Below, piece after piece: positions 9,520 to 27,031 of a stretch of 64,000 bases of DNA. Under the pieces are notes generated by a model, which was not told the DNA's origin, made no database searches, and saw only the letters and a program-made list of their open reading frames with translations. The position numbers were made by a program, and so were the translations under genes. Each line of letters opens with the position of its first letter. The stretch's first letter is position 1. The DNA is from an uncultured Alphaproteobacteria bacterium (lineage in GTDB: Bacteria; Pseudomonadota; Alphaproteobacteria; RF32; CAG-239), in NCBI GenBank assembly GCA_944391395.1, contig CALXTI010000001.1:1-64000 (forward strand). Direction: 5' to 3'.

Positions 9520-9596
9520 GGGGGTGTGGTTCAGTTGGTTAGAACGCTGCCCTGTCACGGCAGAGGTCGCGAGTTCGAGCCTCGTCACTCCCGCCA
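9520..9596 (+). tRNA. tRNA-Asp (GTC), island attachment gene
   Basis: 77-nt cloverleaf with encoded CCA. Acceptor stem GGGGGTG/CACTCCC, anticodon stem CTGCC/GGCAG with loop CTGTCAC (anticodon GTC), and T-loop TTCGAGC. Its last six bases begin the 10-bp repeat that flanks the genomic island, and the stop codon of the minus-strand integrase falls at 9585-9587 inside the acceptor stem. The original terminator of this tRNA is now at 26988-27017. Confidence 0.96.
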
Positions 9597-11087
9597 GTTA
9601 GTTAAATGACGGAAATTTGTTAAGCAATCGAAGGGAAAATTCCAAGTATAGCTTAACTTTCCGTCATTTATTTTTAAGTTCGAAAGTAAAAAATTCAGTA
9701 TCTCCCGTTTTGCATCGACTTTCGAACTCATAAAAAGTTTATGTAAGTCTTTCCCTAATGTTAAGATAGTTGAAACAGCAATATCAAAGTGCTTGTCCGC
9801 TTGAATGTGGTATTGCATTTCTTCATTTATATTCTCTTGCTCTGCTTTTATTGTATCGGACATTTCTCGAAATTCATCTGCAGTCACTTTGTCGTCTAAA
9901 AATAATATGCGTAACTTCAGTAGCTGTTTTTGTTTGTTATCATATTGGGTTCGTAATTCTCTGATTCGTTTTGTATGAATTTCATTCTCAAGGTTGATTG
10001 CTCGTTCTGCATCCTCTCGGACAGCTTCTGCCAGTTTTTGCGGAATGGTCAATTCTTTGAAAATATCTGAAAGTTGCTCCAAAATCACATTTTCATTAAC
10101 ACGTTTATTGGTGCAATTACCTTTATAGTGTGAGCAAAAAAGATAAGTGTATTCTTTACCTGATTTTTTGATTTTCTTATCTGAAGTCATTAAACAACCG
10201 CATTGACCGCATTTTATCAGCCCTTTAAATAGAAAAGGTTTACTCATACATTTATATCTGCGGTGGCTCTCCATATTTTTTCCATGTAGGATATCTTGGC
10301 ATTGTTTAAACAACGCTTTGGAAACCAACGGCGGATATTTATGGGGGTATAATTTGCCCTTATAGAGCATTTCCCCATAATAAAAAGGATTGGCTAATAA
10401 TCGGTGCAAATGGGCTTTATTTATTGGTATACCAGAACGTTTCGATGTTAATCCCCAAGTTTTCGCTTTGTCAGTTAATGTTCGTGTCGATTCGAGTCCT
10501 GTGGCGTATTCTTCAAATAATCTTTTTATCAATGGCGCTCTCTCGGCATCAACAATTACGTTGGATTTATTCTGTTCATCACGCACATTCAAATATCCTA
10601 ATGGTGCCTCTCCGACAATTTCCCCGTTCTCCAACTTATATTTATAACTGCGTTTTACATTTTCAGAAGATGCGGTAACATAGGCCTTAGCAGAAAGAAC
10701 AGCATAGTCCCACCGCATAATATCATTGGCCGAAGCATTATCGTTAATTATCATATTCTCACGTAAAAAGTGTAACTCTACAATTTTTTTATTTCGCAAC
10801 TCATCTAAAACAGTGGTATCTTTAAAACTTCTTTGTGCCCGGTCAACGGCATCAAAAAGTAGTGCTACGGTTTCTTTTTTCTGTCTTTGGTACTTTTTTA
10901 CTTCATCAAGGGCTGAATAAAAGCTTTTACGATTACCTCTTGTAGAACTTTCAGTAATCTTAAAAGTTTTAACAACGGAATAACAATGTTGGTTTGCATA
11001 ATTATTCGCTCTTTCCTCTTGGGCATCTAAAGAAAAACCATCTTCTTGAGTTGTACTTGAAACACGGCAAAAAATAAAACAGTCCAT
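9585..11087 (-). CDS. large serine recombinase (island integrase)
   Basis: 500 aa, catalysing site-specific integration and excision. The N-terminal resolvase domain begins with CRVSSTTQEDGFSLDAQ, with Ser10 the likely nucleophile. Next come the recombinase domain (APLGYLNV, about 155-270), a zinc ribbon (KCGQCGCLMTS ... CSHYKGNC, about 290-330) and a coiled coil (about 350-430). The start ATG at 11087 has GGAG in the leader. The last codons (Trp-Arg-Glu-stop) lie in tRNA-Asp sequence, so the C-terminus is defined by the integration site. It sits at the element end, as integrases do. Confidence 0.93.
   Translation of the reverse strand: MDCFIFCRVSSTTQEDGFSLDAQEERANNYANQHCYSVVKTFKITESSTRGNRKSFYSALDEVKKYQRQKKETVALLFDAVDRAQRSFKDTTVLDELRNKKIVELHFLRENMIINDNASANDIMRWDYAVLSAKAYVTASSENVKRSYKYKLENGEIVGEAPLGYLNVRDEQNKSNVIVDAERAPLIKRLFEEYATGLESTRTLTDKAKTWGLTSKRSGIPINKAHLHRLLANPFYYGEMLYKGKLYPHKYPPLVSKALFKQCQDILHGKNMESHRRYKCMSKPFLFKGLIKCGQCGCLMTSDKKIKKSGKEYTYLFCSHYKGNCTNKRVNENVILEQLSDIFKELTIPQKLAEAVREDAERAINLENEIHTKRIRELRTQYDNKQKQLLKLRILFLDDKVTADEFREMSDTIKAEQENINEEMQYHIQADKHFDIAVSTILTLGKDLHKLFMSSKVDAKREILNFLLSNLKINDGKLSYTWNFPFDCLTNFRHLTNWRE
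9591..9600 (+). repeat. left attachment repeat (attL core)
   Basis: CCGCCAGTTA, overlapping the tRNA-Asp 3' end. It is identical to 26979-26988. Identity stops on both sides (C versus A before it, G versus A after it). Confidence 0.75.
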
Positions 11088-11163
11088 ATATATTCTCCAT
11101 AATTAATAAAATGTTTTCCAAATTATAAACTATGAAAACTTAAATCTATAGACAAAATTTCGG

Positions 11164-11185
11164 CCTAAAAATTGGTGTTTTTAGG
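11164..11185. repeat. inverted repeat in the integrase upstream region
   Basis: CCTAAAAA (11164-11171), six-base loop TTGGTG, TTTTTAGG (11178-11185). It lies between the divergent integrase and the small gene at 11275. The string GGCCTAAA..TTGGTG recurs with two changes at 16118-16132. Confidence 0.55.
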
Positions 11186-11274
11186 TCTAGTTAGTTTATT
11201 GATTTTCACAATGGATTTTCTCCATAATAAGGGTACTTCACAATGTCGTGAAGCAACTATTTTATGACAAAAAT

Positions 11275-11430
11275 ATGGAAGACAAAGAAAGAATTATACT
11301 AATTAAATCATTAAGTCAAGTCCCAATCAGTGATGAAGAGGCTTTATTGGCTTATGAAAATTTAGTTCGGTTCTTTGTTACTCTGTACATGGTAAAAAAG
11401 GAATTAGAAAATGGCCAAGAAGGAAATTAA
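11275..11430 (+). CDS. small acidic hypothetical protein, 51 aa
   Basis: Frame with ATG at 11275 (a GTG at 11248 in the same frame is possible). It encodes a helical, soluble protein beginning MEDKERIILIK. There is no clear ribosome site, so confidence is modest. Its end overlaps the next gene by 20 bp, consistent with a two-gene operon transcribed away from the integrase. It could be a small regulator or directionality factor by position, but nothing in the residues proves that. Confidence 0.5.
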   Translation: MEDKERIILIKSLSQVPISDEEALLAYENLVRFFVTLYMVKKELENGQEGN

Positions 11431-12079
11431 TTTAATATCAACAACTAAAAGGGCTTTTGGTAATCTAAAAAAGATTGACCTGAACTATCGGGGAATCTTA
11501 GCAATAGCTTTAAGTTTGGCTTATAAAAGTTTTTTCGAGGTTGACGAAGAAACTCTAAAGTCGGAATGTGAAAATGCAGGCATTCAATTTGATGAAAATC
11601 GCAAGTTACAAATCATTCTGGAAATATGTATTTCTAAGCCTCAGAAAAAGGCTCCTCTTGAACGATATAAAGCACGCTTGAGGATGTATACGAGAGCTTT
11701 AAAGTGGTTTATTGGTAAAGATATGGAGGTAGATCAAGTAGAAAAAAAATTAAAAGTTTATGGCGTTGAATACTTTGCAAATCCTCGCGATAAAGAAGAG
11801 CAAGAGATTGAACAAGCTCTAAAAGAACAAGATGATGAAGATGAAGGGGAAGTCACTGGAAAAAAGCATTCTCGAACCACAAAAACTTTGTCGGAACAAA
11901 CACTGAATTTTTTCAATAGGCATAATGTTAAGTTGACTTCTTTTGTAGTTTTTGCCATTGGAAATGACGTCTATTGCTCAAATGATGAAGGCCTAATTGA
12001 GGAGTTGAGAAAGTATAAAAAAGGCAGGAATTATGAATTTGATGACATTAATAAATTCAGTAAGCAAAAGGGGCAGTAG
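11411..12079 (+). CDS. hypothetical protein, 222 aa, with acidic linker
   Basis: I do not recognise the family. A basic N-terminal helical domain (residues 1-115), then a Glu/Asp-rich linker (about 135-155), then a short C-terminal domain. No signal peptide or membrane segment. It overlaps the preceding 51-aa frame and ends inside a strong terminator. It is the second gene rightward from the integrase promoter region and precedes the Rep-helicase pair, so a role in element maintenance or replication control is possible. Confidence 0.75.
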   Translation: MAKKEINLISTTKRAFGNLKKIDLNYRGILAIALSLAYKSFFEVDEETLKSECENAGIQFDENRKLQIILEICISKPQKKAPLERYKARLRMYTRALKWFIGKDMEVDQVEKKLKVYGVEYFANPRDKEEQEIEQALKEQDDEDEGEVTGKKHSRTTKTLSEQTLNFFNRHNVKLTSFVVFAIGNDVYCSNDEGLIEELRKYKKGRNYEFDDINKFSKQKGQ

Positions 12080-12090
12080 CCCCTTTTTTT
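12066..12090 (+). terminator. rho-independent terminator
   Basis: AAAAGGGGC (12066-12074), loop AGTA, GCCCCTTTT and four further T. The stem contains the stop codon of the 222-aa gene. Confidence 0.85.
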
Positions 12091-12091
12091 G

Positions 12092-12107
12092 CGTTGTTTA
12101 AACAACG
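12092..12107. repeat. 16-bp perfect palindrome upstream of rep
   Basis: CGTTGTTTAAACAACG, 72 bp before the HUH Rep start. The 19 bases from 12094 (TTGTTTAAACAACGTTTTG) recur with one mismatch at 10302-10320 inside the integrase gene. It could be an operator or a Rep nicking/binding site; the hairpin form suits a rolling-circle origin. Confidence 0.55.
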
Positions 12108-12178
12108 TTTTGAGGGCAACTGCATTTGTGTATACTGAATAAAAACGAATAAAATGCAAGTAATTTAGAGGATTAAAA

Positions 12179-12943
12179 ATGAAGAGAAAACAATTTGCGG
12201 ATAAATATGAAAGTAATGCAAACTTTCAGATTAAACGGCTTAATGATGCAGTTAATAGATATGGTGGTTCGGTTGATAATAAGGCTAAATCATATCGTTA
12301 TGTTAGTGGAAAAAAACAACTAGGATTAATGCAGCCAAGGGCATTAAAACCGTTTGCACGAGTGGTAAAGAGACATTTAGAAGACAGTATATTTCCGAAT
12401 AAGGATGCTCAATATCATATGTTTACTCTGGTTACGGGTTACAATTTTGGTAAAAATAACTGGCAGATGAAATGTGATGAACTGCAAAGACAAACTAAAA
12501 AATTATTAAAAGGGCATGATTATATTGCCAGGGTTTGCTTAGATGAATTCCCAAAGGCTAAATACTTAGATGAGGGGGTGCTAATGTGCTGGCACATTCA
12601 TGGCATATTTTTTCGAGAGCCGTCGCGGTGGTATACGCAAAAAATCAATCAAAGCATAAAATTAAGAGGATATAAAATAACTCCCTTGTTTACAAAACAT
12701 TTTGACCGTTTGATTGATGCAATCCATTATATTTTTAAGATGCCGTTTGGAGGTAAGGTTCGTTACAAGAAAAAAGATGGGACAACAGGTTCTCGTCACA
12801 TATCATTATACCTAAATGCAACCTACGATACATTTATTCATTTAAAAGATGTCAAAATTTACGACTTCATGTTTGCAGGCGGAAAGGGAAAAAAAATCCT
12901 TAAACGTATTTTAGCGGAGGTTAAAAATGATAAGACTAAATAA
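12179..12943 (+). CDS. HUH-type replication initiator (Rep), single catalytic tyrosine
   Basis: 254 aa. Three motifs in the right order suggest a HUH endonuclease: motif 1 MFTLVTG (about residues 81-87), motif 2 CWHIHGIFF with His139-Ile-His141, and motif 3 DAIHYIFKMPF with Tyr184 as candidate nucleophile. Such proteins nick one strand at a rolling-circle origin or in transfer. The start follows TTAGAGG. The SF1 helicase gene overlaps its 3' end by 17 bp, so the two are translationally coupled; rolling-circle replication needs a PcrA-like helicase. Motif spacing fits, but the rest has no family I can name. Confidence 0.7.
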   Translation: MKRKQFADKYESNANFQIKRLNDAVNRYGGSVDNKAKSYRYVSGKKQLGLMQPRALKPFARVVKRHLEDSIFPNKDAQYHMFTLVTGYNFGKNNWQMKCDELQRQTKKLLKGHDYIARVCLDEFPKAKYLDEGVLMCWHIHGIFFREPSRWYTQKINQSIKLRGYKITPLFTKHFDRLIDAIHYIFKMPFGGKVRYKKKDGTTGSRHISLYLNATYDTFIHLKDVKIYDFMFAGGKGKKILKRILAEVKNDKTK

Positions 12944-14195
12944 ACAGCAGAAAAAAGCGGCTCATACCTCACACCGCGTTGTTTATGTTGATGCTGGCCC
13001 CGGTACAGGAAAAACGACCGTAATAGAGGCTCGTGTTAAATATTTAATTAGTATCAATGTGGATCCCCGTGAAATATTAGTTTTGGCTTTTAATAAATCT
13101 GTTGTCGCTGAGCTCAAAACCCGGTTGGGAGTTTATGGGAAAATTAATATTCGGACTTTTCATAGCTTGGGGTGTTCAATAATAAAACGGTACAGCGGTA
13201 ACAACAACTTTAATTTTTTATCTGATGAGGACAAATCAAAATTGATTACGCAGATTAAAAATCAACATACGATAAAAAACGTTAATAATATTGATATTAT
13301 GGATATGCTGTCAATCTGTCGGGAGAATTCTAGCAATATAAAAAAATACTCCCCAGATTTGCAAAAAATATATCGCTGTTATGTTGAAACTCTAAAGCGA
13401 GAAAAGTTGTTTGACCATGCTAAGCTGATACGCAGGGCAAATGCAATTTTGCAAAAAGGTGTAGAGTTGAGAAATAAATTGTGTCAGCAGTACGGCTATA
13501 TTTTGGTTGATGAATTTCAGGATATGTCCGAAAGCCGTTTTAAATTATTGCGACTTTTGACCTGTGATACCACTCATTTATTTATGGTTGGCGATGAAGA
13601 TCAACAAATTTTAGAATGGTCTGGTGTTCGGAATAATAATCTTCGGAAATTACAAAAATATTATCCAAACTTACAAATTTATCCGTTAGAAGGAAGTTAT
13701 CGCTTAACACCTCAAATAGCAAGAATTGCAAATAATCTTATTCGGCATAGTAAGAAACGCATAGATAAAACCTTAAAGCCTCTCAATCAGCAGAATGGAT
13801 ACTTAAAGGTTAAACGGTTTGATAACTCAGATGAAGAAGCCAGATGGTGTATAAACAAAATTGAATTTCTGCTACGAAATGGAGTTGATAAAAAAGATAT
13901 TGCTGTTCTGGTGAGACAGGAAAAAATATTGTATGACACCGTTAAGAAAACAGGTGTTGTATGTTCGACAATTCATAAAATTAAAGGGCTAGAGTTCCAA
14001 CATGTAATCGTTTTAGGAGTTGAGAGGGGTATTTTTAATGGAAGTATTGAGGAAGAGCGCAGGTTGCTTTATGTTGCCGTAACGAGAGCAATAAAATCTT
14101 TAGTGTTGACTTTTATTGATGATGGTATGCGAAAGGTAGGGTATAGGGATATACAAGTTCAGAAATCGCCATTATTAGATGAACTTTATAGGTAA
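12927..14195 (+). CDS. compact UvrD-like SF1 helicase coupled to Rep
   Basis: 422 aa, much shorter than the 650-790 aa of UvrD/PcrA. It keeps every core motif: GPGTGKTTVIEAR (Walker A), VDEFQDMSE (II), GDEDQQILEWSG (III), GSYRLT (IV), STIHKIKGLEFQHV (V) and EERRLLYVAVTRA (VI). The region between IV and V is short, so the 2B subdomain is largely missing. The start overlaps rep. The product is probably the strand-separating partner of the Rep nickase on the excised element. Confidence 0.9.
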   Translation: MIRLNKQQKKAAHTSHRVVYVDAGPGTGKTTVIEARVKYLISINVDPREILVLAFNKSVVAELKTRLGVYGKINIRTFHSLGCSIIKRYSGNNNFNFLSDEDKSKLITQIKNQHTIKNVNNIDIMDMLSICRENSSNIKKYSPDLQKIYRCYVETLKREKLFDHAKLIRRANAILQKGVELRNKLCQQYGYILVDEFQDMSESRFKLLRLLTCDTTHLFMVGDEDQQILEWSGVRNNNLRKLQKYYPNLQIYPLEGSYRLTPQIARIANNLIRHSKKRIDKTLKPLNQQNGYLKVKRFDNSDEEARWCINKIEFLLRNGVDKKDIAVLVRQEKILYDTVKKTGVVCSTIHKIKGLEFQHVIVLGVERGIFNGSIEEERRLLYVAVTRAIKSLVLTFIDDGMRKVGYRDIQVQKSPLLDELYR

Positions 14196-14728
14196 TTATA
14201 AATAGTCCTCCTTGAGATACCATATTGTTTTGCAATTTGGGTAATCGGTGTATTATTATTAATGAGGGCTTTTATTTCCTCGACTTGTTGGGCGGTTAGT
14301 TTAGGCTGACCGCCTTTATATTTACCGTGAAGTTTTGCAAGAGCTATACCTTCTCTCTGGCGTTCTAATATAAGGTTGCGCTCAAGCTCTGCAACAGCTC
14401 CTAACATCGTCATCATCATTTTTTGGTATGGGTCTTGTTTGTCAGGAGCAAAAGTTAAGTTTTCTTTATGAAAAATAATCTTAGCTCCTTTGTGGGTTAT
14501 TTCTTCAACCAGATTTAACAAGTCTTTTGTATTGCGGGCAAGTCTGTCCATTGAGTGACAGTTTACCACATCACCAGCACGAAGATTCAGCAACATGGCT
14601 TGAAGTTCAGGACGGTTGGTATCTTTACCACTGATTTTTTCAACATACTCTCGGTCGCAAGAAATATCTAAGAGCTGTCGTTCGGTGTTTTGGTCGGTCG
14701 TCGACACTCTCTTGTAGTTAAAAATCAT
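14186..14728 (-). CDS. small serine recombinase (resolvase/invertase)
   Basis: 180 aa. Resolvase domain with YKRVSTTDQN (Ser9 as nucleophile), the DRLARN segment and a C-terminal Hin-type helix-turn-helix (ITQIAKQYGISRRTIYNYL). The start ATG at 14728 is chosen because AAAGGAG lies seven bases upstream; ten extra residues from 14758 have no ribosome site. It overlaps the 3' end of the convergent helicase by 10 bp. Likely resolves dimers or inverts DNA on the element. Confidence 0.9.
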   Translation of the reverse strand: MIFNYKRVSTTDQNTERQLLDISCDREYVEKISGKDTNRPELQAMLLNLRAGDVVNCHSMDRLARNTKDLLNLVEEITHKGAKIIFHKENLTFAPDKQDPYQKMMMTMLGAVAELERNLILERQREGIALAKLHGKYKGGQPKLTAQQVEEIKALINNNTPITQIAKQYGISRRTIYNYL

Positions 14729-14768
14729 ATTGTTTACTCCTTTATGTGAAATTGACATTTATAACCCC

Positions 14769-14854
14769 TTTGCACAAATGTGAAATGAACCTAATTTTTG
14801 ATGTTGTTTGCACAGGTTTTGACATATGCAATGGGGGTATACTTTGTTTACACA
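14769..14854 (+). repeat. three TTTGCACA-type direct repeats near the resolvase
   Basis: TTTGCACA at 14769-14776 and 14807-14814, and TTTACACA at 14847-14854, spaced 38 and 40 bp. They lie just upstream of the resolvase start. The first is part of an imperfect palindrome (TTTGCACA-A-ATGTGAAA). Candidate resolvase binding or regulatory sites. Confidence 0.4.
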
Positions 14855-15375
14855 GCCTCCAGAGAGAGGAAATATACCTGACGAAGACATATTTGATACT
14901 TTCTGCAGTTGGTTGTATCTATGTTCTTGAGCAAGATATCCTCTAAGTCGGAGCTGTCATAAAATTTTATTTTGTCTTTGGTTATTCGTTTAACAATCGT
15001 GTAATGGTCGATAAACTCACTCTTAACACGTATTAAAGCCACTTTACCATTTATGGCTTGTTGCTTTATGTTTTCGGTCAACTCAGCTAAATTGAGTTTC
15101 ACATTCCAATATGGCCGTGCATAAATCAATTTTTGATGCAAATATTGCTCCAGCCATTCATTTGCATAATGAAAAATCATCTCAAGTCGTTTATGGCTGG
15201 CTCCGCAACTGTTTAATTCATACAAAGCCTCAAAATAGCTGACACCGTAAATTATATGGTCGTAAAGCTCCTGCCATTCGTTATATTTGAGCTTTAAGCC
15301 AAGAGCCTGTAGCGCATTAAGTGTTGAGTAAACCGAACAATACCTCGAAAAATATCCTTGGTTAAAAGCTTTCAT
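14848..15375 (-). CDS. papain-fold/C39-like cysteine peptidase, putative
   Basis: 175 aa. An early YCSVYSTLNAL segment places a Cys at residue 13 ahead of a helix, and a later DHYTIVKRITKDKIKFYDSS supplies a His followed by a strand ending in Asp. That Cys...His...Asp order is typical of C39-like peptidases. No transporter or signal peptide accompanies it. Its ATG overlaps the stop of the DUF3768 gene (TGATG), so they are co-translated. The substrate is unknown. A non-peptidase member of the fold is possible. Confidence 0.55.
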   Translation of the reverse strand: MKAFNQGYFSRYCSVYSTLNALQALGLKLKYNEWQELYDHIIYGVSYFEALYELNSCGASHKRLEMIFHYANEWLEQYLHQKLIYARPYWNVKLNLAELTENIKQQAINGKVALIRVKSEFIDHYTIVKRITKDKIKFYDSSDLEDILLKNIDTTNCRKYQICLRQVYFLSLEAV

Positions 15376-15710
15376 CAGTACTCCTCAGCAAACATAATGG
15401 TTAAGACACGGTTGGTTTGTGTCTCATCATCGGGCTGTGGAGAATAAAACTCATAATTTAAGTCATACATATCAATTTTCCAGAAGATTTGTTGTCCACG
15501 ATATTCAAAACAGCCAAAGTCGTGTTCACCATACGGATCGTTATCTTCCGTAAAATTATTAAAGGTTCTTACTTTTTGCATAATCTCTTGTTGTTGCATC
15601 AGAGGTAAAGCCGATATACCGCAAGTCAACAGTACCTTACCACCTTCAAAAGTCTTACGGAACTTGTCGTTTTGAGCTGCAATTTTTTTCACATCAATTT
15701 TATTTTCCAT
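15375..15710 (-). CDS. DUF3768 family protein
   Basis: 111 aa. It closely fits the DUF3768 pattern: NDKFRKTF near residue 14, GKVLLTCGI, then NDPYGEHDFGCFEYRGQ, FWKIDMYDLN, and RVLTIMFAEEY at the C-terminus. This family is common on alphaproteobacterial plasmids and mobile islands; its function is unknown. The start has GGAGGTGCAAT in front of ATG. It is the middle gene of a three-gene minus-strand operon. Confidence 0.85.
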   Translation of the reverse strand: MENKIDVKKIAAQNDKFRKTFEGGKVLLTCGISALPLMQQQEIMQKVRTFNNFTEDNDPYGEHDFGCFEYRGQQIFWKIDMYDLNYEFYSPQPDDETQTNRVLTIMFAEEY

Positions 15711-15724
15711 ATTGCACCTCCTTT

Positions 15725-15928
15725 TTACTCGACATCAAACCAAGCCATGGTTGTGGCTAATAAATGATTGTAGTCACCGGACATAGCTTCTTTCATGAAT
15801 TGGTCGATTTCTTCTTGTGGGAGATGTGCTCTTTCCATAGCTCTCTTACATAAGCCTAAAATCATAAATGCATTACCATCTCGCCCAACAAGTTGAACTG
15901 TAATTTCCGGATGTTTGATTTTTGTCAT
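15725..15928 (-). CDS. small plasmid-type hypothetical protein, 67 aa
   Basis: Begins MTKIKHPEITVQLVGRDGN and continues AFMILGLCKRAMERA, a pattern I associate with short proteins on alphaproteobacterial mobile elements, function unknown. ATG at 15928 follows AAAGGAG and overlaps the stop of a 42-codon leader frame (ATGA). First gene of the operon with DUF3768 and the C39-like protein. Confidence 0.75.
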   Translation of the reverse strand: MTKIKHPEITVQLVGRDGNAFMILGLCKRAMERAHLPQEEIDQFMKEAMSGDYNHLLATTMAWFDVE

Positions 15929-16053
15929 TGTTTTACTCCTTTAAAATAAAAAAAGAGCCTCAACACAAGGTTGAAGCTCAAAACGTTACAATTTAGGTGG
16001 ACGATATGTCCGATAACAAACTTATTTCTGAATTTGTAGGTTATTGGTGACAT
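15925..16053 (-). CDS. putative 42-aa leader ORF
   Basis: ATG at 16053 with AAAGGAGGACGAT directly upstream, and stop TGA at 15925-15927 overlapping the start of the next gene. The frame reads through a terminator-like hairpin (15955-15979). Its Shine-Dalgarno and start codon lie inside the long inverted repeat at 15999-16060. This suggests a leader peptide controlling the operon by attenuation or sequestration. The peptide (starting MSPITYKFRNK) has a hydrophobic end but no recognised motif. Confidence 0.5.
   Translation of the reverse strand: MSPITYKFRNKFVIGHIVHLNCNVLSFNLVLRLFFYFKGVKQ
15948..15979 (-). terminator. attenuator-like terminator before the 67-aa gene
   Basis: On the minus strand GAGC-TTCAAC / GTTGA-GGCTC (plus-strand arms 15955-15964 and 15970-15979) is followed by seven T. 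It lies inside the leader ORF, 20 bp before the ribosome site of the 67-aa gene. Confidence 0.6.
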
Positions 16054-16060
16054 ATCGTCC
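15999..16060. repeat. 12-bp perfect inverted repeat sequestering the leader start
   Basis: GGACGATATGTC at 15999-16010 and GACATATCGTCC at 16049-16060. Inner bases (GATAAC with GTTATT) extend the stem. The right arm contains the start codon and part of the Shine-Dalgarno of the leader ORF. Confidence 0.7.
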
Positions 16061-16135
16061 TCCTTTCACACCAAAACAAAACCTTATCCGCTCTGATGAA
16101 AAAGCGAACTATAGAGGCCTAAATTTTGGTGATTT

Positions 16136-16176
16136 ATATTTGAAGTTAAAACGAATCGACTCAACTTCAAATATAA
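16136..16176. repeat. 13-bp inverted repeat
   Basis: TATATTTGAAGTT (16136-16148), 15-bp spacer, AACTTCAAATATA (16164-16176). It sits between the leftward operon and the rightward small zinc protein gene, so it may be an operator or an origin-like structure. Confidence 0.6.
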
Positions 16177-16294
16177 TATATTATAACATATTCTAACACA
16201 AATCGCAAGCTTAAAATCAATAAAAATCAAGGAAAATCAATAAATTAAACAATAATTTTGACATATAAACCAAGTTTATTTTAGGAGCTAAAAA

Positions 16295-16465
16295 ATGAAT
16301 GAATTAACGACAATTCGTAAAATATTGGAGCGTCTTACAAAATACATCACAAAAAAGAAGGGATACATCTGTCAATACTGTGGTCATAAGACTTTACAGC
16401 CATATGGGGGGAAATGCACACAATCTAAATCCGGCCACCACCACTACATCGCTGCAGAACATTGA
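16295..16465 (+). CDS. 56-aa zinc-knuckle small protein
   Basis: ATG at 16295 with AGGAG eight bases upstream, TGA at 16463-16465. A basic N-terminal helix is followed by YICQYCGHKT and a later GGKCTQSKSGHHHYI, giving a CxxC...C...H set suited to one zinc ion. Small Cys-rich proteins like this are common on phages and islands. It is transcribed opposite to its neighbours. Confidence 0.6.
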   Translation: MNELTTIRKILERLTKYITKKKGYICQYCGHKTLQPYGGKCTQSKSGHHHYIAAEH

Positions 16466-16542
16466 GTAGGAAGCATAGTTACAAAAAAGCCCAAAAAACA
16501 AACTATTTACTTATAAACAAACAGTGTATGTTACAAAATATT

Positions 16543-17091
16543 TTATATACAAAATCTATCTGTATTTTGACACAAAATTATCTTAGATTTTAAAACATAT
16601 TGCTGTCCTTCAATTTTTATAGGATAATTTTTATCATTAAATGCTCTCAATATTAGTTTCACTAAATAAGAAGAAAAACTCTGCATTTCTTTACAAAAAT
16701 GTCCGTTACTATTTGAAGTCAACTTATATTTATCTGGAGGTAATACTAAAAAAAATTTTGTATTATACGGTCGAAACAATTCTGTTTCATATTCATACAA
16801 ATATTGCATTGTTTCTTTTATTTTTCGCGAAATTTCTTCTATATTTAAACTTGATAATTTTCGATTTTTTATTTCCAATAAAATAATACCGTTGCGAATA
16901 CCTTCTCTGATACAATCAACTGACGACATTTGCTCTTGTTCAGGACTTCTTAAAACCCCTCTAACAACTTTATCAAAACAACAATACTGCAAATCAGTAA
17001 TAGCTGGATTCTGGCACTTGTCTTCGCAGCATTCACATATTTTTTTATTATAGGAGATTACTTTTTTTCCGCGAGGAGAGAGGATTAACAT
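16543..17091 (-). CDS. Cys-rich protein with ExK motif, partner of the ATPase
   Basis: 182 aa, family not recognised. The N-terminus is Cys-rich (ICECCEDKCQNP ... YCC), suggesting a zinc site. About residues 60-75 read SVDCIREGIRNG, followed by IILLEIKNRK, an E-x-K on a hydrophobic strand as in PD-(D/E)xK nucleases; a preceding Asp is available. It starts eight bases after the stop of the ATPase gene, so it is co-expressed and probably forms a two-component system. Nuclease activity is inferred from one motif only. Confidence 0.55.
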   Translation of the reverse strand: MLILSPRGKKVISYNKKICECCEDKCQNPAITDLQYCCFDKVVRGVLRSPEQEQMSSVDCIREGIRNGIILLEIKNRKLSSLNIEEISRKIKETMQYLYEYETELFRPYNTKFFLVLPPDKYKLTSNSNGHFCKEMQSFSSYLVKLILRAFNDKNYPIKIEGQQYVLKSKIILCQNTDRFCI

Positions 17092-17099
17092 ATTCCAAA

Positions 17100-18488
17100 T
17101 TAACCTTTACATTTACGATTTATTTCTGAATAAATATCATCCAAAACTTCTAGTGGTGAATATAAGCTCTGAAATATTCGGCTATCATTAAAAAAGCCAT
17201 CTTCATTTCTAACGTTTTCAATAATACTGTAATTTTTTCCATTTTTATCTTTTGATGCAAAATAAAAATTAACTTTTTTATCAAAAATTTCTTCTTTTTC
17301 AGAATAAGTACGCAAAGCCTGAATCATGTAAGGACTATGGCTGGTCAATAAAATATAGAAACCATTTTTTACCATTTTACATATAATTTCAGCATATTTG
17401 ATTTGCCACTCAGGATGCAAATGATTTTCTGGTTCATCTAAAATAATGAGACTATCTTTTGTTATGATTCCCGTTTTTAATAGAATATATAATATACCAA
17501 AAGATTTACAGCCACTCGCAATATTAGAAATTTCTAATTCTTTTGCTTTAGAGTTTACTTTGTACTTTAATCTTCCATCATTGGCACTGTACTTAAACTG
17601 TGCTGAATGAAATATTTTTTCAAATTCTTTCAATAAATCTTCATGATATGATTCTTTATTTAAGACTCTTGCTGCCAGTCTTTCTTTTTCGACAAGATCT
17701 GTTGAACTATCAATAATTTTGTTGTCTATTGGTCGAACCATCAAAGGAATGAATCTATTTTGATATTCGCCATAAACACTACGATTATTTTCCAATAAAA
17801 AAGGATTATCTATTAAGGTCGCATCAGAAAAAATCGGAAAGTCTGCATTAAAATAATTACAAACAATATTATCGCAATTTGAGCTCAACATCATAATATC
17901 AATACCATTATTTTCAAAAACAATGTCTGCCATATCATTCTGATAAGCTGAATTATTGATATTACCTTCAAAAACATCTTGGAATATTCTATTAGCAATT
18001 AACTGTATTTTTTCATTCATATTATTATTAGATGAGAGAAACTCGAGAGCTGAATTTGCTAAATTTTGGATATTTTCTTTATTTTTTAAATCATTCGAAT
18101 TATTTAAAATATCCTTTAGCATATTTTTTATTTGTCCATCGTCAAGTATATCCTCCATATTCACATAAAAATTTTTGATATATTTTAATAGTTTAGGATT
18201 GGAAGAGGATACTTCAGCTTCTTCAAATAAAGATGGACGACGAGGAGAAAGTGAACTAATAACATCTCTTAATTCTAGTCGCAAAGGACTCAAATATTCC
18301 TTATAAAGTTTCTCTCTCTGAATTCGGTCAAATAGAGCTGGATAATTTGCAATTGATTTCATCAATGCAAATAAAACTTTACCTACTGTAGATTTACCTG
18401 AGTCGTTCGGACCTGCAATCAAAGTAAGGCCTGATAACTCTATATCTGCCTCTTTAATTTTTCCTACATTTTTTAATTTTAATTTCAT
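17100..18488 (-). CDS. AAA/ABC-type ATPase (OLD-like), defence-associated
   Basis: 462 aa. The N-terminus MKLKLKNVGKIKEADIEL then GLTLIAGPNDSGKSTV (Walker A) is typical of SMC/ABC-like AAA ATPases. A long helical insertion follows, then the signature area around ISNIASGCKSFGIL, Walker B IILDEPENHLHPEW and the H-loop LLTSHSPYMIQAL. There is no C-terminal TOPRIM domain. Strong ribosome site (AAAGGAAAAAT). Related ATPases drive Septu, PARIS and retron-type systems, and this one is paired with a Cys-rich ExK protein rather than HNH or TOPRIM. Confidence 0.85.
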   Translation of the reverse strand: MKLKLKNVGKIKEADIELSGLTLIAGPNDSGKSTVGKVLFALMKSIANYPALFDRIQREKLYKEYLSPLRLELRDVISSLSPRRPSLFEEAEVSSSNPKLLKYIKNFYVNMEDILDDGQIKNMLKDILNNSNDLKNKENIQNLANSALEFLSSNNNMNEKIQLIANRIFQDVFEGNINNSAYQNDMADIVFENNGIDIMMLSSNCDNIVCNYFNADFPIFSDATLIDNPFLLENNRSVYGEYQNRFIPLMVRPIDNKIIDSSTDLVEKERLAARVLNKESYHEDLLKEFEKIFHSAQFKYSANDGRLKYKVNSKAKELEISNIASGCKSFGILYILLKTGIITKDSLIILDEPENHLHPEWQIKYAEIICKMVKNGFYILLTSHSPYMIQALRTYSEKEEIFDKKVNFYFASKDKNGKNYSIIENVRNEDGFFNDSRIFQSLYSPLEVLDDIYSEINRKCKG

Positions 18489-18563
18489 ATTTTTCCTTTA
18501 GCTCTTCACTCTTTATAAAGTACATTTATTTATAACAAACATAATTTAACATTAACTTAATTA

Positions 18564-19493
18564 TCAAGAATTTTCTAAACTTTGCTGGATTAATGGTTTA
18601 GCTTTTTCAAGTTCTTCCATATTTTTAATTGTAATTTCCAATTTTCCTGTACCAAAATGTCCAAGGTTACGAACATCACGAGTAAAACCTTTTTCCAGTT
18701 TTATGTTTTCTGCATCAATATTCACATAAACAATTATTTTGTTTAAGTTAAATTGTACCGATGCAAAATTTTTCAAGCGTCTGTATGCGATATAATGCAT
18801 TAATGTCTTTTTCTGCACATCATCCCCCAAAGACAATAGGTAATCATCCAAAGTGTTATAAAGAGACTTAATTTCAGGAGAAGCTGCATCGAGTTTTTCT
18901 AAAACTGTTTTCACTTTTTTATCAGAAATGTGTTCTTTCTTATCTTCTGGGATATTATGTATACTGTTTTTTGTAATTACGTCATTAGAACTGTTTACTA
19001 ATTCAAATAAAAGATGCTCGTTCTCATAAATCCGATAACGAATTAAATCAATATTTGCTGGCATTTGTTTTATTGCGAATTCATCATAACGACTAAAATC
19101 TTGGGCTATACATATCAAACGTGGTTGAGACCAATCTAATGCATCAGCAACTTGTTTCCCAAATTTTTCAAGGACTAACCACGCAAAATCTTTAGGATGT
19201 TTTACTAACCAATCCATATAAAATAAACCTTGATTAATAACAGTATCTTTCCCATCCTTTTTATATTCAATAATAACCGGACAATTATTTTCATCTAGCC
19301 CTAATGTATCAATACGTGCATTATGTCCATCATCAGCCTTAAAAGCGTGCTCAGTCTTAAGAAAACGAACATTCAATAACGTTTCACTATTTTCTTCAAC
19401 AAGCCTTTGAATATTGCGTTCTTTTGCAACGATTGAAGTATTTAGCTCAACAGCTTTTCCATTTTGAATATTAAACAATTTTAAATCAGACAT
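18564..19493 (-). CDS. PD-(D/E)xK nuclease-like protein with DUF5655 domain
   Basis: 309 aa. Residues about 55-80 contain ARIDTLGLDEN and PVIIEYKKD, a D...ExK catalytic pair as in NucS-like nucleases. The C-terminus (about 235-305) fits DUF5655: LKNFASVQFNLNKIIVYVN and a later NLGHFGTGKLEI. It starts three bases after the res gene stop with GGAG in place, so it belongs to the restriction operon. May add a second nuclease or a DNA-end sensor to the type III system. Confidence 0.75.
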   Translation of the reverse strand: MSDLKLFNIQNGKAVELNTSIVAKERNIQRLVEENSETLLNVRFLKTEHAFKADDGHNARIDTLGLDENNCPVIIEYKKDGKDTVINQGLFYMDWLVKHPKDFAWLVLEKFGKQVADALDWSQPRLICIAQDFSRYDEFAIKQMPANIDLIRYRIYENEHLLFELVNSSNDVITKNSIHNIPEDKKEHISDKKVKTVLEKLDAASPEIKSLYNTLDDYLLSLGDDVQKKTLMHYIAYRRLKNFASVQFNLNKIIVYVNIDAENIKLEKGFTRDVRNLGHFGTGKLEITIKNMEELEKAKPLIQQSLENS

Positions 19494-19496
19494 CGT

Positions 19497-22097
19497 TTAA
19501 TCTCCTATAATAGCGTTTAATTGTTCGTCAACATTCAGACCATCTTTCGTTTTTTGAACAATGGAAAATAAACCTTTACCATTAGATTTACTTTCCCAAA
19601 GTTTGCCAATATTATTTTTTTCTCTCGTATCTGCATTATCAACAATATGTTGTCCTTTATACTCAACAACTAAAATTCTACCATCATTTAGCATTGCAAC
19701 AAAATCAGGATAAAATTTATCAGTTGAAGTTGGCAACCAAAAAGAACTTCTGTGTCGTGCAACATTTCTTATCCAGAATTTAACATTTTTATTTCTATCT
19801 AGTGCTTGTGCACATTGAAATTCTTCTCCATTTTGCCCTCCATCAAACTGTGGTACACGGTTTGAACCAAGATAATGCTTTGTAAATTTATAACTTCCTC
19901 GGTAATACAACTCTCCATCATACATATTATCAAAAAACTCAAAGCCATTATCAAAATTTAATTCTATACGGGCTTCAGGACTTAAAAATGATAATTGAAA
20001 TGATTGGGTTCTAGCTTTAGCAAAAGCATCATGTATTTTGGCTTTCAGCTTATTTGCCAATGCATATTTTGCAATCATGAGCTCTGAAATGCTAATATTT
20101 CTATTTTTAACCAAATAATCGACTACTTTTGTTAGCCAAGAAATCATTATACCTTGTGAAAAATACGAGTTTCTTAATTGAGCATCTAACCACTTAACTA
20201 AATGAGCTTCCGTCCAATTAGAAGTATCAACAAAAGACATTGCTAATTGGTCTTCTCCTGCAATTGAATATCTCAAACAATTATTATCAAGGTCAATCAT
20301 AAAACCATTACCTTGTTTTGAAATTTTAAATTCTTCAGCTTCAAGTTTGTATGATGCATAATCTTCAAGATTCCAGTCAAAATCTTCAAAAACAACCTCC
20401 GCATCAGCAAACTCAAGTTGTCCTTGTACTTCAACCATCATACAAGGAACTTTAAATTTTTCTCCACTTTTAGCAGGACAAGGCTCATTAAGTGTTTGTT
20501 TGTAGTTTGCAAATTTAGTTTCTAACTCAAATACTTTTATGTCATCTAAATATGGTTTAATTTGTTCAATTTCTTCTTTACTGGTTTCTGCTGTAAAACA
20601 AAGACTTTGTGATCCATCACTCTCTTTTTGCAAAGTAATTGTTTTTGGTAATACCTTTTGCTCTATAACGATTTCTGGACTTAACACGATTTTGTTTTGA
20701 GATTTTACACCAAATAATCCAAAATCCGCTGGTTTTTGTTCCACAACAGACAAAGCTTCTTCATCTGAAAATCCTTTATTTTCAAGTTTTTTAACAATAC
20801 AGTCTGTTGCATCTCCAAATTTTGCTGACAAAACATAAGCGTAAGCCTTGTTTAAAGCCGAAATTTTACGACTTTTTGCATATGGCATACGCATAACTCG
20901 ACCTAATAACTGTTCAACCGCTGTATCACTATGTACATTTGCTAACGAACATAAAACATACGCAAAAGAACAATCCCAACCTTCTTTTAATGCTTGCACA
21001 GTAATAATATATCTAATAGGACAGTTTGCATCAAAAACATTTATCCCATCAAGTTCTTTTTGCTCACCTGTTGCAATCGCTATTTCATTTTCAGGAATGT
21101 TTTGCACTTCTACCAAATGTTTTTTCAACACCTCTACATTTACTTCACCATCTTTATCTTGTGCTTGAAACAACAAAATCGGTCGCACATAATCTTTTTC
21201 ATTTTCGGCATATTGTTCCAACTCAGCTCTTTTAGCAATAGCTTCTGTTACAGCGAATTCCCAATTGTTATGTTCCGTCAACACAATTGGAAGTTTTATC
21301 ATTTCTTCTTCTTTGAGTTCCGTTGCTCTAACATTGTATAAAGTATTATTTTTCAAACGTGGAGTTGCCGTAAATTCAATAATGGCCGAAGGATTAATAC
21401 GTCCTTGCATTTCTGCACTTAAATTCGTAACAGCATTGTGTGCTTCATCAATAATCATAATCGGTCTATGAAAATATAGCAAATTTGCAAAAGAAAACTT
21501 TAATTTTCCGTTTTCATCTTTTTCCATACCTTCTGTTGCAGTTATATGTGAAAAATGTGGTTCAAAGTTTTCGTTATGTTTATAAACATTATACTTTGAT
21601 GTATCTTTTTTACTAAAGGCTTGTATGGTAGATACAACAATACACAAATTTTGCTCAATATCACTTTCTCGTATATTAAACTTTTCATCAATATCAAAAA
21701 CTTTTACCTTAGAATTAAATTGCTCATCCAAAGCTTCTCTATATGGATGACGAGGATTTTTCAGAGCTTCTGAAGTTTGTTTTCTAATAGTATCAGACGG
21801 ACAAAACCACAAAACAAACGGAAAGTCTTTCTCCAACCAAGTTTCAGAAGCTATTTTAATTGAGTGAGCTGCTAAAATGGTCTTTCCGCCACCTGTTGGT
21901 ACTTTTAAACATATTCTGGGAGTATTCGGTATGCTATCCCAAACAATATAATCCGATGCAAGTTTAGACAATCTATTTTTAATTTCTGGTTCGGACGTAA
22001 TACGTTCAAATGCATTTTTTGCACCGCATATACGAGCTGTTTCAAAAAACTTTTGTAATACATTAAGGGTATTAATTTGATATTGTTTCAATTGCAT
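19497..22097 (-). CDS. res: type III restriction enzyme, Res subunit
   Basis: 866 aa. SF2 helicase with Walker A KVPTGGGKTILAAH (about residues 67-80), the DEAD-type box IIDEAHNAV, motif III EFTATPR and motif VI QLLGRVMRMPYA. The C-terminus bears the endonuclease domain FYPDFVAML ... ILVVEYKG, a D...ExK site. In type III systems Res translocates or slides between two sites and cuts when Mod leaves them unmethylated. It is separated from mod by three extra genes, which is not the usual adjacent order. Confidence 0.92.
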   Translation of the reverse strand: MQLKQYQINTLNVLQKFFETARICGAKNAFERITSEPEIKNRLSKLASDYIVWDSIPNTPRICLKVPTGGGKTILAAHSIKIASETWLEKDFPFVLWFCPSDTIRKQTSEALKNPRHPYREALDEQFNSKVKVFDIDEKFNIRESDIEQNLCIVVSTIQAFSKKDTSKYNVYKHNENFEPHFSHITATEGMEKDENGKLKFSFANLLYFHRPIMIIDEAHNAVTNLSAEMQGRINPSAIIEFTATPRLKNNTLYNVRATELKEEEMIKLPIVLTEHNNWEFAVTEAIAKRAELEQYAENEKDYVRPILLFQAQDKDGEVNVEVLKKHLVEVQNIPENEIAIATGEQKELDGINVFDANCPIRYIITVQALKEGWDCSFAYVLCSLANVHSDTAVEQLLGRVMRMPYAKSRKISALNKAYAYVLSAKFGDATDCIVKKLENKGFSDEEALSVVEQKPADFGLFGVKSQNKIVLSPEIVIEQKVLPKTITLQKESDGSQSLCFTAETSKEEIEQIKPYLDDIKVFELETKFANYKQTLNEPCPAKSGEKFKVPCMMVEVQGQLEFADAEVVFEDFDWNLEDYASYKLEAEEFKISKQGNGFMIDLDNNCLRYSIAGEDQLAMSFVDTSNWTEAHLVKWLDAQLRNSYFSQGIMISWLTKVVDYLVKNRNISISELMIAKYALANKLKAKIHDAFAKARTQSFQLSFLSPEARIELNFDNGFEFFDNMYDGELYYRGSYKFTKHYLGSNRVPQFDGGQNGEEFQCAQALDRNKNVKFWIRNVARHRSSFWLPTSTDKFYPDFVAMLNDGRILVVEYKGQHIVDNADTREKNNIGKLWESKSNGKGLFSIVQKTKDGLNVDEQLNAIIGD

Positions 22098-22099
22098 CG

Positions 22100-23353
22100 C
22101 TATTTATCCTTTTTATCGCAAAAACGCATAAATTTTTCTAATAAATCAATCATATCTTTAGGAATAACAATATTATCAGTGTCTTTTATTTCATGTCTTC
22201 CAAAAAATTCTTTTGCGAGTTCAAGTTTTAATTCTCTTGCTGTTTTGCTGCCTTCTGGAATATTTTGTTTTGCTTCTCTTTCTGATTCCACAAAATCAAT
22301 ATTTTTGAGATATGGATCAACATTAGCTATTTTAATTTCAAAATCTCTAAGCAAAATTTCTTGGTTTCTTCTCTTTCGCGCTTCAATAGCTGTATAGAAA
22401 GCTGGTAATAACAGAACCACTGCTATTGGTAAACGTGTTAAAACTGTCCACCAAGAAAACTCACCATCACTACACATTTCAACAATTAAAGCCGCCACCA
22501 TTACCGCTGAAGCAGCGCAAAACAACCAAAAAGAGACCCAAAATAAGTTGTTCGCCTTTTTATGCTCTTCATCTGCATATTTTTTATATTCACCACAAGA
22601 AACAACATCTCCAACTAAACCATATATTTTGTTTATTTCAGCTCTACGTGTTTCAAGTTCTGAAAGTATTTTTTGTGCTTGATTATCTAAAGCTATAGAT
22701 TTTTCATTAAATTTTGTTTGTATCTCTTCTTCAGAAGCTTTTATCTGTTCGGAATATTTTCTGCCAGCCTCATCCCAAGATTGTAGAATATCCCTTTGTG
22801 TAACACTAAATGCATTGCTCCTTGACTTTTCAGCATCTGTAAATTGTTTTTTAAAGCTGTCAGATAAATTAGTTAATTCCTGTTCTTTTGTATTAATTTG
22901 AGCTTTTAATTCATCTATTTGCTGTTTTAGAGTTAGCACTTCTTTTTCTAAACTCTTTTTTTCAGAATTAACTTGAGTAATGATATTTTCATTTTGTTGC
23001 TTATATGTATTAATTATCTGATTGAGAGATTGTTTTGTTTCTAATTTATTTGCTTCAGGTATGTACATAAGCTGAGAAATGATATTATCAATTTGCCCAG
23101 GAATATTATTAAAATATCCTGATGTTGGACTTGATATGTCACTATTTACATAATTTTGAATACTAGCTAAGTACGAATTGATATTATTTAAATACGAAGG
23201 ATTACATACCAACGCGCCAACACCATTCACTCTGTTCTCTAAAATCGGGATAATTGATTTGAGACGTTCATATATAGCCGTATTTTGGTCATTAAGTTGA
23301 ACTTTTTCTAGTGTTTCTTTTAATTTGGCTATTGGTGTAATTAAATCTATCAT
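22100..23353 (-). CDS. coiled-coil protein with two membrane helices
   Basis: 417 aa, family unknown. The N-terminal 120 residues are helical. A long coiled coil (about 120-240, Glu/Lys/Gln rich) is followed by two membrane helices (about 268-288 and 296-318: LFWVSFWLFCAASAV, then LPIAVVLLLPAFYTAIEA) and a cytoplasmic tail with DMIDLLEKFMRFCDKK. It sits two bases before res and 19 bases after the 116-aa gene, inside the mod-res operon. A membrane-anchored sensor or effector is plausible. Confidence 0.7.
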   Translation of the reverse strand: MIDLITPIAKLKETLEKVQLNDQNTAIYERLKSIIPILENRVNGVGALVCNPSYLNNINSYLASIQNYVNSDISSPTSGYFNNIPGQIDNIISQLMYIPEANKLETKQSLNQIINTYKQQNENIITQVNSEKKSLEKEVLTLKQQIDELKAQINTKEQELTNLSDSFKKQFTDAEKSRSNAFSVTQRDILQSWDEAGRKYSEQIKASEEEIQTKFNEKSIALDNQAQKILSELETRRAEINKIYGLVGDVVSCGEYKKYADEEHKKANNLFWVSFWLFCAASAVMVAALIVEMCSDGEFSWWTVLTRLPIAVVLLLPAFYTAIEARKRRNQEILLRDFEIKIANVDPYLKNIDFVESEREAKQNIPEGSKTARELKLELAKEFFGRHEIKDTDNIVIPKDMIDLLEKFMRFCDKKDK

Positions 23354-23372
23354 TTTTTTATCCTAAACTTAA

Positions 23373-23723
23373 TTAAATTGGTTTTAATAAATCCCCTATT
23401 TCTGCATTATCAAACGGCAAATCTTCTTCTGTTGTAACATAACCGCCAAACATAATGCCTCTATTGGTTTTTACCATTTTTTTATTTATAGACTCAATTG
23501 TGGCCACCTTTGGTTGCACATGAACAACTTTACCTTTACCTTTTGTTATTTCCAGCTTACCCAGTGACTCATCCGTATCTGGATCAAAAAGTTCCTCTGC
23601 TTCTTTATATACAAGAAATACTTGACCTAATTTAATTCCAGCATTTTCTCCTTTATTTACAACGATTTTATATTCATTAATTAGTTTAATTACTTTAATA
23701 GTATCACACGCTATTTCATTCAT
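23373..23723 (-). CDS. small hypothetical protein, 116 aa
   Basis: No signal peptide. The pattern INEYKIVVNKGENAGIKLGQVFLVYK is like a small beta-barrel (OB/FlgT-C-like turn), with GKLEITKGKGKVVHVQPKVA after it. Nothing catalytic. Its start overlaps the 3' end of the two-TM gene by 8 bp, so they are coupled. It probably acts with its membrane neighbours. The flagellar-type resemblance is a guess. Confidence 0.65.
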   Translation of the reverse strand: MNEIACDTIKVIKLINEYKIVVNKGENAGIKLGQVFLVYKEAEELFDPDTDESLGKLEITKGKGKVVHVQPKVATIESINKKMVKTNRGIMFGGYVTTEEDLPFDNAEIGDLLKPI

Positions 23724-24234
23724 TGTTTTCTCCTTTATTATGGCCAGCCATTAATCTATCAATCTCTTGATAAGGAATTGTTGGTTTTATTATGATATTT
23801 TTCTTATTCTTTATTAAGAAATTATCACTATAATGTTCTTCTATTTCAGAAATCACTACTTGCAAATTATTAGAATGAGAAATAACCGTTTCTATTCGTC
23901 CGTATCCAATATACCTCTCTATCTCATCTTTTATATACAATGAAACAGCAGCTTGATGGGAAAATAATTCAGAAGGTTCAAAAATATATCTTTTTTCCTT
24001 TACCATCATTAAATGTGGAAAATTGATTTCTTTGTTATTTGCATTCCAATATTCTATTTGCTTAGGTATTGTAACTATTACATATATACCTAACGGAATT
24101 ACACACGACATAAATACGGTTATAGAAACAGTATCTTCAGGAGAAAAAGCCCAAAATAAAATTCCTGTTATGATAACACTAATTAGTGCTATTATATACT
24201 GTGCTAAAAAATCCAATATTTTCCTTCCCATCAT
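23716..24234 (-). CDS. two-TM protein in the mod-res operon
   Basis: 172 aa. Two N-terminal helices (about 8-30 LAQYIIALISVIITGILFWAF, and 36-56) then a soluble domain with basic and acidic residues. It starts one base before the mod stop codon end (coupled) and overlaps the 116-aa gene. With the coiled-coil protein it makes a membrane set inside a restriction system. No family recognised. Confidence 0.7.
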   Translation of the reverse strand: MMGRKILDFLAQYIIALISVIITGILFWAFSPEDTVSITVFMSCVIPLGIYVIVTIPKQIEYWNANNKEINFPHLMMVKEKRYIFEPSELFSHQAAVSLYIKDEIERYIGYGRIETVISHSNNLQVVISEIEEHYSDNFLIKNKKNIIIKPTIPYQEIDRLMAGHNKGENNE

Positions 24235-25800: not shown

Positions 25801-26224
25801 CTTATTTTCCTAAAATGTTAAAAATTTATCTGATTTTATCTACTTTAACTTGAAAAAGCAAGTATTTGATAGATTTATACTCCCTTATTTTCCTTCATTC
25901 CTAATGTCATCGCATTAATTTTGCGACGCGTTGTATATAAATTGCGATTTGCGCGTTTTCCTTGTCAGCCAATACGTATTCGGTTGTTTTATGATAATTC
26001 ATCGTCAAAAACCAATTCCCACACTCAAAACGCAGCAAAACGACATTTTTAGTTTTCACTTGACTCTTTATACTAAATATGCTTTAGTATGTCCGCTTTG
26101 GAGTTCCTAATGAACTCGTTCGTTGTATACCGAACTAATTACCTCGTCAGAGGAAATAGTTTGGTATTTTTTATTTAGACTGTTTCCTTTGATGAAAATG
26201 AAATAATTTCGGAAAGGAAATAAT
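25801..26224. promoter_or_regulatory. divergent control region between mod and the 230-aa gene
   Basis: About 420 bp without a credible gene. TTGACT at 26060-26065 could be a rightward -35. The perfect repeat ATACTAAA-TATGC-TTTAGTAT (26070-26090) overlaps where the -10 should be. A small GAGTTC/GAACTC hairpin (26101-26117) is followed by a long terminator hairpin. The part nearest mod (25801-26000) shows nothing I can name except presumptive mod promoter sequence. Confidence 0.5.
26128..26174 (+). terminator. attenuator-like terminator before the 230-aa gene
   Basis: Stem from TACCGAACTA (26128-26137) with TAGTTTGGTA (about 26157-26166), extended by CCTC/GAGG around loop GTCA, then a TTTTTTATTT tract. 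It lies in the apparent 5' leader of the gene at 26225. Confidence 0.65.
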
Positions 26225-26917: not shown

Positions 26918-26978
26918 TTTGGTCGTGATGTTTGTACAGGTCTATAATGAATTGAGTGCGAAGTGTGTTATATTCGTA

Positions 26979-26988
26979 CCGCCAGTTA
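26979..26988 (+). repeat. right attachment repeat (attR core)
   Basis: CCGCCAGTTA, identical to the tRNA-Asp end at 9591-9600 and directly followed by an A-tract terminator. Confidence 0.75.
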
Positions 26989-27017
26989 AAAAAACCGCCT
27001 GGAAAGGCGGTTTTTTT
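26988..27017 (+). terminator. displaced tRNA-Asp terminator
   Basis: AAAAAAACCGCC (26988-26999), loop TGGAAA, GGCGGTTTTTTT (27006-27017). It directly follows the right att core, so before insertion it would have ended the tRNA-Asp transcript. Confidence 0.8.
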
Positions 27018-27031
27018 CTGAAAGGAAATTC

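Follow-up and report, generated by a model that had tools for sequence, protein, structure and literature searches.

Predicted exchange of a conserved integrase C-terminus upon integration into tRNA genes in a family of large serine integrases

Based on the sequence comparisons assembled here, integration of a mobile element into a tRNA gene can be taken, with little doubt, to exchange the C-terminus of the element's own large serine integrase (Int), and it is probable that the tail so exchanged also has some functional role while the element is free. The sequences show how: integration breaks int at a codon located in the acceptor end of the target tRNA, the TGG that is the complement of CCA. 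The conserved C-terminal tail stays behind at attR as an orphan frame and Int gains a short C-terminus read antisense from the tRNA, while joining of the element ends brings the tail back in frame on Int. The case is developed from an element in the window (the whole stretch of 64,000 nucleotides analysed, from an uncultured alphaproteobacterium), whose relevant features are as follows.

9520 to 9596, plus strand: tRNA-Asp(GTC), target gene of the element (ARAGORN)
9573 to 9579, minus strand: attB-side motif CTCGAAC, the antisense T-loop of tRNA-Asp, +17 from TGG
9585 to 11087, minus strand: large serine integrase (Int), integrated form, 500 aa, ending ...LTNWRE before the stop (Resolvase, Recombinase and Zn_ribbon_recom Pfam matches; frame check)
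9591 to 9600, no strand: left core CCGCCAGTTA, essential part probably CCGCCA at 9591-9596 (comparison with the attR of genome G020)
9601 to 26978, no strand: integrated mobile element, 17.4 kb (core repeats, reconstituted tRNA-terminator empty site, G020 copy, Pfam)
26853 to 26978, minus strand: orphan Int coding tail at attR, 41 codons (26856-26978) plus TAA (26853-26855) (in-frame conservation in four other right ends)
26956 to 26962, minus strand: attP motif TTCGCAC, T-loop-like, a putative zinc-domain site, +22 from TGG
26979 to 26988, no strand: right core CCGCCAGTTA, 10 bp identical to the left core
26989 to 27019, no strand: hairpin terminator (z -4.1), directly after tRNA-Asp in the empty site

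Int matches PF00239, PF07508 and PF13408, all above cut-off, and has the make-up of a large serine recombinase, with an N-terminal resolvase domain, a Recombinase domain and a zinc ribbon with coiled coil; against the NCBIfam equivalog for XisF (fdxN element) it scores 92 bits, below the cut-off of 375. Its catalytic and DNA-binding domains remain whole within the integrated 500-aa form, as the frame check and the Pfam matches agree. Pfam identifies in the element, besides Int, a small resolvase-type recombinase, a UvrD-like helicase and a type III-like restriction-modification pair. The pair (19497-25800) has the appearance of cargo and comprises a ResIII-domain protein (19497-22097) and an N6/N4 methylase (24235-25800) separated by small unknown genes; the second, small serine recombinase, of resolvase/invertase type (14186-14758), overlaps the UvrD-like helicase gene at its end. 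Removal of the element in silico leaves tRNA-Asp followed immediately by the strong hairpin terminator, and the reconstructed empty site makes sense as a gene layout. Along the reading direction of Int, the terminator immediately precedes the orphan tail.

Read on the minus strand, Int passes through T-N-W (W at 9594-9596), R (9591-9593) and E (9588-9590) to a TGA stop at 9585-9587, inside tRNA-Asp, the antisense of which supplies the codons past the core (E and stop). The preliminary description had rightly ended the frame inside the tRNA but had W-R-E-stop fitted into 9585-9593, which is one codon short. With the element ends joined across the core, the predicted attP has the Int frame ...LTNWR continue into YEYNTLRTQFIIDLYKHHDQIMWMYSRYCLIIEHYQEELTK and then stop. 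The earlier proposal that the frame runs on past TNWR across the junction is thereby upheld, with its extent corrected from about 42 codons and a TAA at 26840-26850 to 41 codons and a TAA at 26853-26855. The predicted junction, common to the window element and the G020 copy, reads ...CTAACTGGCGGTACGAATATAAC..., and only in this excised form is the orphan tail joined to the window Int. In the window element as in its relatives, attP lies inside the int coding sequence and integration alters the Int C-terminus.

The genome G020, from a different genus of the same family, harbours the same element in its own tRNA-Asp, with a single difference within the shared 500 residues of Int (residue 426, Y to C) and a right end in which the 41-codon tail region is identical. 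The integrated Int of G020 ends ...NWRERRGSNPRPHA because the TGA is missing in that frame of its tRNA-Asp; the C-terminus, WRE in the window and WRERRGSNPRPHA in G020, is set by the host tRNA. The G020 right end reads CCGCCATTAG..., where the core is CCGCCA only, the tRNA 3' end. The true core of the window element need therefore be no longer than CCGCCA, and the GTTA of the 10-bp repeat is probably host sequence. Identical 10-bp repeats do stand at both ends, as described earlier, but their full length as the crossover was given up for CCGCCA. The essential earlier claim holds: the integrated and free forms encode integrases with different C-termini. The target tRNA determines the integrated end, and the tail of the free form is conserved protein sequence, for which reason the difference is not an accident of a single junction.

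An open frame of 41 codons is by itself unremarkable in AT-rich DNA. Homologues of the window right end were present as four right ends in three genomes (G074, G082 in two copies, G036) with different host flanks, and those of G074, G082 and G036 are open in the Int frame with the translations YGYDTFRTQFIMDLYKHHNLIMLMYSRYCLMMQHQEEDSKS, YDNSTFRTEFITNLYQHHNQIMLMYSQYQMIQEHLAQAA and PKCNTFLTEFVIELYKRHNDIMRIDYRHLKNKII, respectively. In the closest divergent pair, window and G074, tail substitutions at codon positions 1/2/3 number 8/6/20 (dN/dS 0.07). A permutation test, in which the observed base changes were placed at random sites and the amino-acid identity was asked to equal or exceed that observed, gave p = 0.02 (window-G074), 0.0004 (window-G082) and 0.0008 (G074-G082) for the whole tail, and 0.017, 0.00015 and 0.003 for the same pairs when confined to codons 9-39, outside the att half-site; the more divergent pair window-G036 gave a weak result (p = 0.08), and three of the four tests on the tail stand at p<=0.021. 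To judge from its codons, purifying selection acts on the tail at the protein level, both in the window's clade and in a phage clade. The 41-codon tail is placed above chance by its protein-level conservation in G074, G082 and G036 together with the same arrangement in other clades, and the codon-level conservation ruled out a chance open frame. Across the family, few homologous right ends were retrieved with the whole right end as DNA query, and one more with the tail as protein query. The right end in G074 (G074:C41:3304-3436, L166), a remnant, is an orphan whose tail is intact. An intact tRNA-Asp stands about 1.3 kb away, and the genome yielded no related integrase at the threshold applied.

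The arrangement extends well beyond the window's clade. Of 106 distinct related Int loci, drawn from genomes and from viral contigs, 63 have an Int frame that runs antisense into a tRNA; 12 tRNA types are targeted (Gln, Asn, Glu, His, Thr, Ser, Asp, Ala, Val, Pro, Lys, Arg). The related loci span several phyla, with Alphaproteobacteria, Rickettsia, several patescibacterial groups, Vampirovibrio, Melainabacteria, Dependentiae and others represented, and antisense-tRNA ends of Int also occur in records of Legionella adelaidensis and a Neochlamydia plasmid and in two virome phage contigs. A matching tail is orphaned at attR in the clades that target tRNA-Thr, -Glu, -Gln and -Asn, and the attP crossover within int lies ~27-54 codons ahead of the true stop. 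In the window's own genome, a contig breaks inside the end of a second such integrase of the Thr clade (G000:C21:21899-22177, L132; ...TPETDKWCR, antisense into tRNA-Thr).

Both states of the junction can be seen in a gut-phage clade. Five IMG/VR contigs (L118-L121 and L114) have the uninterrupted attP form, with L118 ending ...SNWLPNSSNVRTGQVFDISVFLARRQEIIALREPLRLVKEAIAA before the stop and what look like phage genes downstream of the joined Int-tail frame. The integrated relative L071 (tRNA-Gln) has an Int that ends ...SNWLLHLDSNQD, and a tail 70% identical to that of L118 is found as an orphan 55-codon frame ~36 kb off, at attR. L059 likewise has its orphan tail at attR (attR loci of the integrated relatives, L155 and L158), and the DNA of L118 past the tail is colinear with the attR of L071, in L155. 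In the phage clade (L118, L071, L048; A1 columns ~480-570), the core is separated from the last zinc-domain strand by a variable linker of ~65 residues; in the window's clade this linker is short.

Further clades provide the tail in orphan or joined form. The attR tails of the tRNA-Thr clade read WC(A/E)ILC(N/S/K)YRTNFYDDFKTLSRKIDMFEM..., several copies standing in tandem arrays, and at L213:12564 of this clade 62 Int codons are still joined in frame to the tail. The tRNA-Glu clade has ...NFELLLSPEYYKPTMETYILVEKFMQNN... at attR, in another phase relative to TGG yet in frame with its own Int. The Thr- and Glu-clade tails were ranked partly by the attachment-site motif described below. Other attR tails are from patescibacteria and an alphaproteobacterium (L044, L041, L056, L101, L086). 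Joined Int-tail remnants occur in G071 and in Legionella adelaidensis NCTC12735, where 36 Int codons lead into WLPLVSILRTQRREEVVNFGRCYSSIIPVDNIKRAC and a stop, with the intact Int at attL ending in tRNA-Asn; that 50-kb stretch gave no further right ends with the Legionella tail as query. The Bacteroidetes MAG locus L049 has full-length Int plus tail, and no tRNA. Within the DNA examined, a recognisable attR was not found for some integrated loci (e.g., L024, L026, L012), and wider IMG/VR scans with two Int alignments gave no clear additional attP forms. When nine clade-representative tails were anchored, gapless, at the TGG-encoded Trp, they were closer to each other than shuffled sequences (p = 2e-4), with a hydrophobic residue (in the residue set used) at position 15 in 9/9 and at position 22 in 8/9, and with residues common to different clades at positions 10-26.

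Several loci bear on the history of the insertion sites. Right ends or tail remnants in tandem arrays beside one tRNA (L086:1296,1920,2734; L205; L207; L213; L192:37495) suggest repeated insertion at the same site, and 14-bp copies of the tRNA end repeated upstream of the integrase (L097:881,1559,1731; L085:3518) are perhaps remnants of earlier insertions.

A shared motif offers an account of the targeting. The antisense T-loop motif TTCGAAC stands 17 nt from TGG in 69 attL sites (mean 6.35 of 7 matches), and at offset 22 the 17 attP arms, chosen without regard to the motif, gave 5.88 of 7 matches against a background of 1.7. The sites have the layout known for serine integrases, a short core with the motif at +22 in attP and +17 in attB. 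The zinc-domain motif of LI integrase is shifted by 5 bp between attP and attB (PMC3783163), restated as 4-5 bp for SPbeta (PMC12412911), and the large serine integrases compared (A118/LI, SPbeta, Bxb1, phiC31) share with the window family this outward displacement of the motif in attP by 4-5 bp relative to attB. In the tRNA-Thr clade, with ATCGGAC as its T-loop sequence, the attP arm also has ATCGGAC. We infer that the zinc domain of Int recognises the conserved T-loop, which would be a simple rule by which the family targets so many tRNAs.

The L049 Int was used for structure prediction. Its tail closes with a helix spanning residues 499-512, of moderate confidence (pLDDT ~59-79 in the last blocks), and the later part of the tail is predicted, from this one model, to be helical. 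A fold search with the model returned the SPbeta, Bxb1 and phiC31 integrases as nearest structures (matches 9dxd, 9iu2, 9rah and 4kis); a PDB sequence search gave no match with the single protein and only catalytic domains with a profile.

Because Int carries the tail only while the element is unintegrated (or at a tandem junction), this is the state in which selection must act on it. The enzyme that performs attP x attB integration would be the free form, with its tail on. The C-terminus of LI integrase is near the coiled coil thought to control direction (PMC5737554), and with the serine-integrase C-terminus so placed, the tail may be of use to the enzyme of the free element, most likely during attP x attB synapsis. 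Its loss would leave an integrated-state Int of altered activity. An effect on synapsis or direction is plausible, since the domain in control of synapsis, the zinc/coiled-coil domain, precedes the tail; most likely, renewed integration would be lowered or the response to a directionality factor altered, as an integration-state-dependent switch or lock-in. That the swap may control recombination direction is plausible. The full version of the idea, a self-encoded and reversible directionality switch with a tail-on form competent for integration and a tail-off form impaired and set for excision or directionality-factor dependence, is put forward tentatively, as possible but a good way short of an even chance.

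The main rival explanation, also short of an even chance, is that attP inside int serves only to keep the enzyme with its site through recombination between elements; the tail would be an ordinary C-terminus, Int would work alike with or without it, and its swap would be devoid of regulatory meaning. In the archaeal suicidal integrases, such compactness of int and att has been discussed as an advantage (PMC8371274). phiC31 integrase reportedly does not need its C-terminal 21 residues (PMC5737554); tails of serine integrases can thus be dispensable, and tail loss could be neutral. The tRNA-derived tails range from 3 to 99 codons with no constraint visible. Groups of the same family outside tRNA genes (L096, L017, L064, L058, L062) have a similar-looking tail, e.g., W-FDFDKSDIKEYEAMAEKVQMYK, with the last residues varying, and in L096 and L058 this is maybe just the normal C-terminus. 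Against the explanation, purifying selection implies that the tail matters in at least one state, for which only the unintegrated or tandem-junction state is available, and in the gut-phage clade the tail is conserved despite the variable linker that precedes it.

Conservation at attR merely as attP-arm DNA, an Int binding site with a frame open downstream by chance, draws on the overlap of the first ~9 tail codons with the +22 motif. It is very improbable: conservation reaches codon ~40 (120 nt), far past the ~25-bp half-site (PMC3783163), and the third-position excess, the significant tests on codons 9-39, the residues common to different clades and the existence of full Int-tail frames all speak against it. 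Conservation imposed by the plus-strand ORF 26225-26917, which shares 62 nt with the distal half of the tail, was rejected as scarcely credible, given stops in the opposite-strand frames of G074 and G036, the position of the proximal 61 nt of the tail outside the ORF, and the tails of other clades that have no such ORF.

The exchange of the Int C-terminus has importance in several respects. What keeps serine integrases from running in reverse is a key issue in phage biology and for genome-engineering tools. In this family, recombination itself rewrites the C-terminus of the enzyme, time and again and across many lineages, offering natural tail-on/tail-off enzyme pairs for testing. If the directionality switch were true, a recombinase would read out its own recombination state across a phylum-spanning family of serine integrases. 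Additionally, integrase C-termini in public records such as 'DSNQRP' or 'GWGGWIRTNE' are antisense tRNA, the native tail being absent from such gene models.

Compared to known systems, the family has the domain order and fold of the large serine integrases A118/LI, SPbeta, Bxb1 and phiC31, and differs from them in an attP crossover within the int frame and a target motif that is the conserved tRNA T-loop. The archaeal suicidal (SSV-type) tyrosine integrases have genes split by integration, with the catalytic domain in Int(C), and self-disrupting recombinases have been reviewed as exclusively archaeal (PMC8371274). The window Int resembles them in that its gene contains the recombination site and is left in part at the other end. 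It differs as a bacterial serine integrase in which only a short C-terminal tail is exchanged, the catalytic and DNA-binding domains staying whole, and there is no int(N)/int(C) split that separates the catalytic domain. In mycobacteriophages of the BPs type, the gene that contains the attachment site encodes the repressor, not the integrase. Integration-dependent immunity of these phages likewise has integration change a protein, and hence the life-cycle decision, through an attachment site in a gene (PMC4557955). In the literature searched, mostly that outside subscription journals, no serine integrase was found to be reported with attP within int and an altered C-terminus; the nearest precedent is phage Mx8. 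Mx8 integrase is a tyrosine recombinase, whereas Pfam places the window Int among the serine recombinases. In this Myxococcus phage, attP lies within the int coding sequence, as in the window family, and integration creates a new int 3' end, the changed integrase being active with modified specificity (PMC6070905). Distinct from Mx8, the family described here consists of large serine integrases that take their integrated C-terminus from antisense tRNA, in many tRNA species and across several phyla.
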